Shown here one piece after another: positions 18,264 to 21,119 of a DNA stretch of 64,000 nt. The notes under the pieces are model-generated. The model searched no databases, was not told where the DNA came from, and saw only the letters and a program-made list of their open reading frames with translations. Within the stretch, counting starts at the first letter, position 1, and every line of letters starts with the position of its first letter. Position numbers and translations under genes: made by a program. Source of the DNA: Comamonas sp. SCN 65-56 (GTDB taxonomy: Bacteria; Pseudomonadota; Gammaproteobacteria; Burkholderiales; Burkholderiaceae_C); NCBI RefSeq assembly GCF_001724135.1, contig NZ_MEDS01000023.1, positions 1 to 64,000 of the forward strand, in the 5' to 3' direction.

Positions 18264-19403
18264 TCAGTGGTTCTGGATGGTCTTGAAGAACGCCAGAATG
18301 TTGCTGATCTGGTCTTCCTTCAGCGTACCGCCCCAGGTGGGCATGCCGGCATCGGGGCGACCTTCCTCAATGGTTTGTTTGGCGACTTTCAGCCAGTCGT
18401 CGCCGTACTTGCCCTTGAGCCGGCGCAGGTCACGTTGACGGATGGGGCTGGCGCCATTGGGCGAATGGCAGTGCGAACAGGTGCTGTTGAACAGCTCCCG
18501 CCCAGCGGCGGCCGGATCGGCGGCTGCTGCCACCAGCATCCGATACGGTGATGCTTGACCATAGGGGACTTCCCCATCAGCTGCCGGTATCAGTGCCACA
18601 TCGGCAGGGCCGGCCTTGCCCTGCGCCATGCCGAGCGCCACGGGCTTGCTCTGCGGAAAGCCGTATTTTTCAGCCAGCGCCGTGATTTGGGGGTGCAGCT
18701 CGGTGAGCGCAGCGTCGATGCGCGCCAGGAGTGCGCCGTTGTTTGCCGGCACGGCGACCGCCACCTGGTGGTTCATGTGTTCGCCCGAGACCGGGGTCAC
18801 GCGCCAGCGGTTGTGGTAGCGGGTCAGGTTGTCATAACCCGCGGTGGGCCCCCACATGAAGGCCGCGTCGATCTCGCCCTTGTCCAGCGCTGCGAGGATA
18901 TCGGCGTCGCTGCGGTAGGTGACAGTGGTGTAGCCGCCCTGGGCTGCGAGGATGATTTGCGGTGTGGACGCAAACCCGACGCCGATGCGCTTGCCCTTGA
19001 GGTCGGCGAGTTGCGAGAAGCTGAAGAATGGCGGCGCCACCACGGCATAGGCGACATCCAGGAAGGCCCGGGTGCGTTTCATGCCGCGCGTGCCGTAGTC
19101 CTTGTCCGCTGGCAGGGCGAAGTAGGCGTCGCATTTGCCCGCAAGAATGGTATTGCGCAAGGCCTTGCGCTGGTTCATCGAAAGCCACCAGACGTACTGC
19201 GGTTGGGCATCCAGTTTGTGCGCGACCAGATTGGCCAGATCCACGTACAAGCCGTGTTCGGCCCCTTCGGCCTTGCTGTAGGGGAGATTGTCCGGGTCGC
19301 TGCAGATGCGCAAGGTTGTTGCGGATGCAGTCGGCGCCGCCAGGGCGCCCGCTGCCAGTACTGCAGAAACCAGGCCCCCAATCCATGCTGTCTTGAGGTT
19401 CAT
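18264..19403 (-). CDS. MxaJ/XoxJ-like binding protein fused to cytochrome c
   Basis: A 379-residue exported protein with two parts. After a signal peptide (about residues 1-28), residues 30-250 form a periplasmic substrate-binding fold with the start typical of the MxaJ/XoxJ group (LRICSDPDNLPYS) and cysteines 34 and 91. Residues 295-379 form a cytochrome c domain with CSHCH (309-313) and Met354 in GMPTW. MxaJ/XoxJ and a cytochrome c are normally separate partners of PQQ methanol dehydrogenases; here they are one chain. It follows the PQQ dehydrogenase gene with an 18-base gap, so it is probably its activator and electron acceptor. Confidence 0.85.
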   Translation of the reverse strand: MNLKTAWIGGLVSAVLAAGALAAPTASATTLRICSDPDNLPYSKAEGAEHGLYVDLANLVAHKLDAQPQYVWWLSMNQRKALRNTILAGKCDAYFALPADKDYGTRGMKRTRAFLDVAYAVVAPPFFSFSQLADLKGKRIGVGFASTPQIILAAQGGYTTVTYRSDADILAALDKGEIDAAFMWGPTAGYDNLTRYHNRWRVTPVSGEHMNHQVAVAVPANNGALLARIDAALTELHPQITALAEKYGFPQSKPVALGMAQGKAGPADVALIPAADGEVPYGQASPYRMLVAAAADPAAAGRELFNSTCSHCHSPNGASPIRQRDLRRLKGKYGDDWLKVAKQTIEEGRPDAGMPTWGGTLKEDQISNILAFFKTIQNH

Positions 19404-19421
19404 GGTTTCACACTTTCGCCA

Positions 19422-21119
19422 TCAGTTCAGGGCAAAGACGAACAGGGTGCCGCCTTCGGAGCTCGCGTTCACCACGTCCGCGCCGATGTCTCCCATGAAG
19501 GCCGGGATGCTTTCGGTGCGGCCCGAGACCACCGCCACATACTGCTTGCCATCGATGGTGTAGGTCATCGGTGCGGCCGAGATGCCGGAGCCGGTGTTGA
19601 AGCCCCAGAGCTGCTTGCCGTTCTTGGCGTCATAGGCGTTGAACCAGCCTTGCACATTGCCCTCGAACACCACGCCGCCGGCGGTGGACATCGTCCCGCC
19701 GGTCCACGGCAGCGGGTTTTTGTCCAGCCAGACCTGCTTGTGCGTCACCGGGTTCCATGCGGTCAGGCCGCCCATGTAGTCGCCCTTCAGCGGCTTCTTG
19801 ATCTGGAAATCGTTGCCCAGGTAGAACGCGCCACGTTTGTATTCCGGCTGCGTGTCGACCATGTCCATGCACAGGTTGTTGGTCGGGATGTAGACCAGAC
19901 CGGTGGCGTGGTCGTAGCTCATGGGCATCCAGTTCTTGCCGCCCAGCAGGCTGGGGCAGATGCCCGTTGCCTTGCGCTCCATGCCGGGGCGCATCTTGTT
20001 GCCGGGGATTTCCACCGGCCGGCCTGTCGCCAGATCCACCTTGCTGGCCCAGTTCATGTCAACAAAAGGATCGGCCGAAATCAGCTTGCCGTTGGCGCGG
20101 TTGAGCACGTAAAAGAAGCCGTTGCGGTTGGCATGCATCAGCACCGGCGTCTTCTTGCCGCCGATGCTCAGATCGCTCAGCACCATTTCGTTCACGCCGT
20201 CGTAGTCCCAGGCGTCGTGCGGCGTGAACTGGTAGTGCCACTTGATCTGGCCCGTGCTTGCATCCAGAGCCACCACGGACGAGGTGTACAGATTGGTCTG
20301 CTCGCCAATGTCGGAGGTGTCGCTGCCGCGCACCACGGCCGCCCAGGGCGATGGATTGCTGGTGCCGTAATACACCAGATTGAGCTCAGGATCGTAGGAG
20401 CCGACAAACCACGCGGCACCGCCGCCGTTCTTGGCCGAGTCACCCTTCCAGGTGTTGCCGTTGGGCTCATTGGGCAGCGGTACGGTGTAGGTGCGCCAGA
20501 CTTCCTTGCCGGTTGCCTGGTCGAGCGCGACGATGGAGCCGCGCGCACCATACTCGCCGCCGCCGTAGCCGGAAATCACGAGGTTCTTCACCGCCGTCGG
20601 CGGCGAGGTGATCACCGAGCCGTTCTTGTAATCGGTGATGGCCGTCTTCCAGAGTTCCTTGCCGGTCTTGGCGTCGAGCGCGACGACGTTCGCGTCCAGG
20701 CGCCCGACGAAAATCTTGCCATTGCTGTAGGTCACGCCACGGTTGCCGACGTCGCAGCAGGCGTATTGGTCTATGCCCTTGGGCACGTCCGGCTGGTAGC
20801 GCCATTTGAGCGCGCCGGTCTTGGCGTCGACGGCAAACACGGTGGCGGGGCCGAAGGAGGACGACACGTACATGGTGTCGCCGATCACGATGGGCGTTGA
20901 TTCCTGCGAGCGCAGCGAACCGAGCTGCAGCGTCCATTTGACATGCAGGTTGCCGACGTTCTTGGTCGTGACCTGCGCGGCTTTGCTGAAACGCGTGTTG
21001 CCGGCGTCGCCGCCATAAATACCCCATTCCTGGGCGTTCGCCAGGCTGGCGGCAAAGAGAAGCGCGGATGCTACTGTCGTCAGAGCAAATACGCCTCGCT
21101 TCATCGTTCTGTTGAGCAT
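19422..21119 (-). CDS. PQQ-dependent alcohol dehydrogenase, lanthanide-type signature
   Basis: A 565-residue periplasmic quinoprotein with a signal peptide (ending near SLANAQ), beta-propeller repeats of the W-docking type (VALDAKTGKELWKT, VALDQATGKEVWRT), the vicinal disulfide CC (121-122), metal ligands Glu189 (GGGEYG) and Asn255 (GTSNPSPW), and catalytic Asp305 within WDYDG. The second aspartate, Asp307, is the hallmark of lanthanide-dependent enzymes such as XoxF and PedH; calcium MxaF has alanine there. The substrate may be methanol or a short alcohol. It is shorter than typical XoxF. The start at 21119 has GGGAG 8 bases upstream. Confidence 0.88.
   Translation of the reverse strand: MLNRTMKRGVFALTTVASALLFAASLANAQEWGIYGGDAGNTRFSKAAQVTTKNVGNLHVKWTLQLGSLRSQESTPIVIGDTMYVSSSFGPATVFAVDAKTGALKWRYQPDVPKGIDQYACCDVGNRGVTYSNGKIFVGRLDANVVALDAKTGKELWKTAITDYKNGSVITSPPTAVKNLVISGYGGGEYGARGSIVALDQATGKEVWRTYTVPLPNEPNGNTWKGDSAKNGGGAAWFVGSYDPELNLVYYGTSNPSPWAAVVRGSDTSDIGEQTNLYTSSVVALDASTGQIKWHYQFTPHDAWDYDGVNEMVLSDLSIGGKKTPVLMHANRNGFFYVLNRANGKLISADPFVDMNWASKVDLATGRPVEIPGNKMRPGMERKATGICPSLLGGKNWMPMSYDHATGLVYIPTNNLCMDMVDTQPEYKRGAFYLGNDFQIKKPLKGDYMGGLTAWNPVTHKQVWLDKNPLPWTGGTMSTAGGVVFEGNVQGWFNAYDAKNGKQLWGFNTGSGISAAPMTYTIDGKQYVAVVSGRTESIPAFMGDIGADVVNASSEGGTLFVFALN

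Follow-up and report, generated by a model that had tools for sequence, protein, structure and literature searches.

The closest described counterpart of the locus analyzed here is the XoxG:J fusion of Methylacidiphilum, also named cytochrome cGJ (PMC6688271, PMC8498564, PMC5623727, PMC8170126), which one of these papers terms exceptional. The J part of this fusion is described as truncated and a separate xoxJ is also present (PMC6688271), and cytochrome cGJ is described as the redox partner of XoxF (PMC8498564). The roles proposed for J proteins are regulation, maturation through the insertion of pyrroloquinoline quinone (PQQ) and metal, and the mediation of contacts between dehydrogenase and cytochrome (PMC12997753); loading of PQQ and metal has been proposed for XoxJ and MxaJ (PMC12997753, PMC8170126). 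A second aspartate in the dehydrogenase is described as an indicator of lanthanide binding, and metal heterogeneity within families is mentioned as well (PMC11996626). Here, we analyzed a stretch of 64,000 nucleotides of Comamonas sp. SCN 65-56 (contig NZ_MEDS01000023.1; hereafter the window), which carries a PQQ-dependent alcohol dehydrogenase (ADH) gene and, downstream, a single gene encoding both a MxaJ/XoxJ-like domain and a cytochrome c (the J–cytochrome fusion). The original prediction for this locus held that these two parts are separate genes in described systems, a statement that the Methylacidiphilum fusion contradicts. We consider it likely that the pair represents a lanthanide-type periplasmic ADH in which the maturation or docking factor is joined to the first electron acceptor within one polypeptide.

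The dehydrogenase scores 657.5 bits against TIGR03075 (PQQ methanol/ethanol dehydrogenase; curated cut-off of 480.05) and therefore belongs to this family. Its residues 1–29 form an apparent secretion signal, as judged by eye, and its chain is shorter than that of XoxF, as first proposed. The second aspartate that had been assigned to position 307 is found exactly there: D305-x-D307 aligns with the D-x-D of XoxF2 (4mae) and PedH (6zcv), at a position where ExaA (1flg) presents D-x-S. With E189 and N255, these residues form the lanthanide-type ligand set (second Asp, Glu and Asn) of 4mae and 6zcv, and the Cys-Cys pair, Glu, Asn and D-x-D all align with those of known lanthanide enzymes. An AlphaFold2 model of the protein presents a mean predicted local distance difference test (pLDDT) score of 85.5, with residues 1–29 below 50. 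The top fold match of this model in the PDB is the europium methanol dehydrogenase (MDH) 6fkw (Z 51.7), and the lanthanide MDHs and PedH tie as its closest folds (Z 50.8–51.7). The ligand set predicted for this metal site indicates that the enzyme is probably of the lanthanide type, from which we infer the metal that it uses.

The open reading frame (ORF) of the fusion starts 18 nt downstream of the dehydrogenase stop codon, and its residues 1–28 also form an apparent secretion signal by eye. The TIGR03871 (MoxJ-like) profile spans residues 31–251, which correspond to profile positions 2–231 of 232 (114.1 bits), indicating that the J domain is full length. The closest fold of this domain is MxaJ (5sv6; Z 21.2), and the top five also include XoxJ (6onp) at Z 20.2 and, at Z 20.1, the MxaJ chain from the structure of the MxaF/MxaJ complex (9ism). 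The motif C-x-D-P-x-N-x-P (C34, D36, P37, N39 and P41) is invariant in 33/33 aligned fusions and is also present in XoxJ 6onp; the domain thus shares both fold and motif with MxaJ/XoxJ. Pfam cytochrome c models PF13442 and PF00034 match residues 297–376 above their gathering scores (27 bits for PF13442), and this match, together with the conserved CxxCH motif and methionine (Table 1), identifies a class I cytochrome c, to which the PedF and CcoP models show weak matches. The AlphaFold2 model presents two confident domains and a disordered linker (pLDDT < 50 over residues 261–293), and this linker varies in length and sequence among the aligned fusions. The description of a J-like domain and a cytochrome c in one chain was thus accurate, down to the positions of CSHCH (309–313) and Met354 and to the coordinates and strands of both ORFs. 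In the source genome (95% complete), the fused domain is the single TIGR03871 match and no second J was found.

We searched for relatives of the fusion in one genome per species, using an alignment of three fusions as a query, and the best 80 of 144 relatives were kept. The group of the window protein comprises 46 of these 80 loci (43 assigned by the ADH tree, L052 by the tree of J domains, and L048 and L054 by identity alone, 47%); J and cytochrome share one frame in 43 of the 46, in a scan whose patterns derive from fused J proteins, which biases upward the share of fused proteins among all J proteins. These 43 include the fused frame of Comamonas badia DSM 17552 (L035; 89% identity), a member of the same genus whose dehydrogenase is 94% identical to that of the source genome. 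The ratio of nonsynonymous to synonymous substitution rates (dN/dS) between these two species is 0.10 for the J domain, 0.12 for the linker and 0.10 for the cytochrome, the linker value being a weak estimate based on 36 codons with a dS of 1.76. Since the one-frame fusion recurs across so many loci, including C. badia, it is neither due to chance nor a sequencing artefact, and we rejected the possibility of an assembly error or of two separate genes; the low linker dN/dS was also counted against an assembly error. The resolution into two genes envisaged in the original prediction is therefore not borne out by the search across genomes.

The genetic linkage is constant: in each of the 46 loci of the group, a dehydrogenase ORF precedes the J domain at a distance of at most about 460 nt; in L048, L052, L054 and L078, this ORF is partial or disrupted. 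Most hosts belong to the Burkholderiales, followed by Rokubacteria and Acetobacteraceae, with one Acidiferrobacteraceae bin; one acidobacterial bin also hosts the pair, in a copy near-identical to a Rokubacteria one. The distribution is patchy, with the pair found in 2/9 genomes of the genus and in 15/399 genomes of the family (10/141 genera). Among 100 searched relatives, full-length matches were detected in three and any match at E 0.001 in 39, the remainder being partial. A plasmid collection contained relatives of the J domain, none of them covering 80% of the fusion.

We further analyzed the evolution of the dehydrogenase with an ADH tree of 94 rows (obtained from 122 sequences by dropping 28 that were redundant or distant outgroups), a more careful ADH tree of 59 rows and a J tree of 70 rows from which redundant loci were left out. 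The 44 group members of the 94-row tree form one clade (SH-aLRT 100), and 41 of them are followed by the fusion; the three exceptions are L068, which is cut by a contig end, L074, whose cytochrome part is interrupted, and L079, whose J has no cytochrome after it. This main clade is recovered in the ADH tree and in the J tree alike. In the 59-row tree, the window clade is supported at 100/99, XoxF and MxaF lie beyond a branch supported at 100/100, and a third group unites ExaA and PedH with quinohaemoprotein ADH; the ExaA/PedH group itself is supported at 100/100. XoxF was anchored by XoxF2 (4mae), XoxF5 (6oc5), L123 (nearest 6dam) and L153 (annotated XoxF5), and the tree is without labelled XoxF1, XoxF3, XoxF4 or Keltjens PQQ-ADH types other than 2b. 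Using topology tests for which all groups were defined after the tree was seen, we rejected the placement of the clade next to the XoxF2/XoxF5/MxaF rows (P value of the approximately unbiased test, p-AU, of 3e-5), next to other XoxF-side rows (p-AU 7e-54) and with ExaA/PedH (type 2b PedH/ExaF; p-AU 6e-4, with a smaller likelihood gap of 32.5). An earlier XoxF test (p-AU 4e-53) is not relied on: it held the clade with nine XoxF rows and left out MxaF, which branches in between these rows, and was for this reason poorly posed.

The D-x-D is kept in 43 of the 44 clade members (DYD in 42, DFD in one and DYV in one), as is the Glu ligand (replaced by Asp in L073), and Cys388/Cys417 and KNW are common to all 44. 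The 15-residue loop between W208 and W224 is found in 44/44 members and in 13/78 other sequences; outside the clade, this stretch most commonly spans 33 residues, and it spans 33–37 in the XoxF and MxaF references. In the phylogeny, the enzyme groups with neither XoxF, MxaF nor ExaA/PedH: its clade is separate from XoxF/MxaF and from ExaA/PedH and mixes XoxF-like and PedH-like features.

A side group of loci (L080, L081, L085, L090 and L098) is the sister of the main clade in the J tree and also presents the 15-residue loop. A single origin of the fusion for the main clade and this side group was rejected on the ADH tree (p-AU 5e-4). The sisterhood in the J tree and the common loop make it possible that the two share an ancestral J partnership. 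In two of these loci (L081:5776-7296 and L090:5719-7224), one ORF encodes a J domain and, after it, two stretches of cytochrome c, and the adjoining dehydrogenases keep D-x-D and present a replacement of Cys-Cys (RI, RV). Other J–cytochrome fusions were found in Deltaproteobacteria bins (L083:5797-7185 and L082:2-1174), nested among XoxJ-type proteins in the J tree. The L083 fusion adjoins an XoxF-side dehydrogenase and its J exceeds the TIGR03871 cut-off (278 bits). The L082/L083 fusion looks like an independent fusion event.

Table 1. Positions in the window of the two genes and of their domains and residues.
Feature	Position	Strand	Evidence
PQQ-dependent ADH ORF, 565 aa	19422..21119	-	TIGR03075 profile match
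Codons of C121-C122, vicinal disulfide position	20754..20759	-	Sequence/alignment
Codon of E189, metal-ligand position	20553..20555	-	Alignment
15-residue loop between W208 and W224	20451..20495	-	Alignment
Codon of N255, metal-ligand position	20355..20357	-	Alignment
Codons of D305-Y306-D307 (D305, catalytic; D307, second Asp, lanthanide-type)	20199..20207	-	Alignment
J–cytochrome fusion gene, 379 aa	18264..19403	-	ORF and TIGR03871/Pfam matches
MxaJ/XoxJ-like periplasmic-binding domain, residues 29–256	18636..19319	-	TIGR03871, fold comparison
Flexible, variable linker, residues 257–292	18528..18635	-	pLDDT, alignment
Monohaem cytochrome c domain, residues 293–379	18267..18527	-	PF13442 41 bits, PF00034 35.3 bits
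Codons of haem-binding C309-S-H-C-H313	18465..18479	-	C309, C312 and H313 invariant in 33/33 aligned fusions
Codon of M354 (putative distal ligand of the haem)	18342..18344	-	Invariant in 33/33 aligned fusions

The source genome contains two other PQQ dehydrogenases. One (G000:C1:145111-146688; L003/L115/L161) also presents a D-x-D (DFD), groups with PedH and lies about 4.5 kb from pqqE, the sole PQQ gene that was sought, which is present on another contig (G000:C1) than the pair. The other (G000:C5:122206-123804; L002) carries DYT and groups with quinohaemoprotein ADH-IIB, which suggests, from its sequence, a calcium-type enzyme. A promoter scan yielded 0 hits versus 0.5 expected by chance and carries no weight either way.

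The neighborhood of the pair was compared across relatives. A molybdenum hydroxylase-type protein is found near the pair in six relatives' loci, five of which also present a 2Fe-2S subunit (these neighbours were grouped by BLAST, and Pfam was applied to the L084 pair alone), and the L071 locus presents an aldehyde dehydrogenase nearby. These neighbours fit an oxidation from alcohol to acid in those relatives; beside the pair in the window, no molybdenum hydroxylase-type or aldehyde dehydrogenase gene was seen. About a dozen relatives have small genes in common upstream of the dehydrogenase (L041:1873-3720, L051:1415-3957, L060 and L084); in L051, one of them is weakly MotA/ExbB-like (20.2 bits, below the cut-off) and three are without a Pfam match. 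A frequent 554-aa cluster among the conserved neighbours is probably a shadow frame. In C. badia, an extra reverse-strand gene absent from the window (L163:6844-7974), which by eye resembles an amino-acid-binding or glutamate-receptor-type protein, lies between the pair and a phosphatase-like gene. Finally, one Rokubacteria contig carries two pairs of dehydrogenase and J–cytochrome fusion (L063:4065-11669), and the second dehydrogenase presents DLD and is without the Cys-Cys pair.

Several observations weigh against the interpretation of the pair as a lanthanide-type ADH with a fused J and electron acceptor. The TIGR03871 score of the J domain (114.1 bits, or 115.8 in the genome search) falls short of the cut-off of 212.15, and amino-acid-binding proteins tie with MxaJ/XoxJ as its fold matches (Z 0.3–1.7 under MxaJ). 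The cytochrome of the fusion presents no match to TIGR03872 or TIGR03874 (MoxG/XoxG) at E 0.001; for comparison, the XoxF5-linked cytochrome of L153 reaches 234 on TIGR03874. The J of L079 ends before any cytochrome, such that the cytochrome is not strictly obligatory, and the same holds for the second aspartate, which is missing in L056 (4008-5696), the only clade member with DYV. A calcium MDH (4aah; Z 50.6) follows the best folds of the dehydrogenase, so that fold leaves the metal undecided. The source genome being 95% complete, a second J could have been missed.

Some of these observations are shared with other explanations. The pair might be an ordinary quinoprotein ethanol dehydrogenase system that uses Ca2+ in vivo and retains D-x-D as a relic, as the DYV of L056, the proximity of 4aah to the best match and the metal heterogeneity reported within families (PMC11996626) would allow, metal use being beyond what sequence and fold can show; the retention of D-x-D in all other clade members renders this improbable. 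The fold similarity to amino-acid-binding proteins and the variety of roles proposed for J proteins (PMC12997753) would also suit a J domain acting as a true solute receptor (e.g., for a lanthanide chelate, PQQ or alcohol), with a cytochrome serving sensing or tethering and not electron transfer from the dehydrogenase. We consider such a receptor unlikely, given that the domain has the motif of MxaJ/XoxJ and, like them, is constantly linked to a dehydrogenase, and that a structure of the MxaF/MxaJ complex exists (9ism); moreover, the translated ORFs of the window, read without a family search of the neighbours, showed no transporter gene next to the pair.

Another possibility is that the pair follows the Methylacidiphilum arrangement of XoxF and XoxGJ, the enzyme being a methanol dehydrogenase of the XoxF type that has somewhat diverged. 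The best sequence match of the enzyme in the PDB is indeed XoxF2 of M. fumariolicum, lanthanide MDHs are among its top fold matches (tied with PedH), and it has D-x-D, the C388/C417 pair and a J–cytochrome fusion in common with that system. This explanation is nevertheless very improbable in light of the careful tree, which puts the enzyme outside XoxF/MxaF, and of the rejection of both XoxF-side placements. It is further opposed by the lack of the C-terminal GGW...GLGAVG stretch, by the presence of KNW as in ExaA/PedH, by the short loop (15 versus 33–37 residues) and by a cytochrome without a MoxG/XoxG match. Overall, a lanthanide-type ADH with a fused J and electron acceptor remains our preferred interpretation, and the pair is real, conserved and mechanistically plausible.

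Under this preferred interpretation, the two genes would form a periplasmic module for alcohol oxidation. Judging from its D-x-D ligand set, the dehydrogenase would bind PQQ and a trivalent lanthanide and may oxidize a primary alcohol or an aldehyde, either instead of methanol or in addition to it. The N-terminal J domain would bind the dehydrogenase and help to load PQQ and metal, or hold the complex together, or both. The flexible linker would carry the class I cytochrome c, whose tethered haem would take electrons singly from reduced PQQ (PQQH2), in line with the role reported for cytochrome cGJ towards XoxF (PMC8498564), and would hand them on to the respiratory chain. More tentatively, this clade of lanthanide ADHs may have merged the cofactor-loading factor with the first electron acceptor, such that J assembles the enzyme and then stays as a docking platform presenting the haem; the shortened W208–W224 loop would be part of the docking face, and the merger would have arisen again independently in XoxF-type systems (L082/L083 and Methylacidiphilum). 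We regard this joint scenario as conceivable but doubtful.

With a J covalently tied to its cytochrome and no other J found in the genome, the pair offers a simple single-protein system to separate the proposed roles of J. It also suggests that Burkholderiales and Rokubacteria oxidize alcohols with an enzyme that is not a member of the XoxF family and that probably depends on lanthanides. To our knowledge, no assay exists for this dehydrogenase clade (Burkholderiales, Rokubacteria, Acetobacteraceae and Acidiferrobacteraceae).

In the accessible text of the open-licence papers searched, Methylacidiphilum was the only case of a J–cytochrome fusion to turn up; a whole clade outside XoxF in which a full-length J is joined to another kind of cytochrome seems undescribed in this literature. 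The window enzyme resembles XoxF by its PQQ propeller, its Cys-Cys pair, its Glu, Asn and D-x-D ligands and its extra C388/C417 pair, but it falls in a separate clade with a short C-terminus, a short W208–W224 loop and the KNW motif, and, unlike XoxF and MxaF, it is without the C-terminal GGW...GLGAVG stretch. It resembles PedH/ExaF and ExaA/PedE by KNW and the short C-terminus, D-x-D being common to PedH, and differs from them by its separate clade and by the C388/C417 pair, which the PedH and ExaA references do not possess. Its partner presents the fold and the C-x-D-P-x-N-x-P motif of MxaJ/XoxJ, but its J is fused to a cytochrome and scores below the curated cut-off of TIGR03871. As in the XoxG:J of Methylacidiphilum, a cytochrome c and a J-type domain are joined in one chain beside a PQQ dehydrogenase of the lanthanide type (D-x-D). 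Neither the MoxG model nor the 4cys (XoxG-like) one gives a match to the window cytochrome, a contrast drawn with a Methylacidiphilum protein known by description, and the order of the domains is J then cytochrome, whereas the published name XoxG:J (a name, not a sequence) suggests the reverse. Unlike the J part of Methylacidiphilum, the J of the window is full length and is the sole J found in its 95% complete genome.

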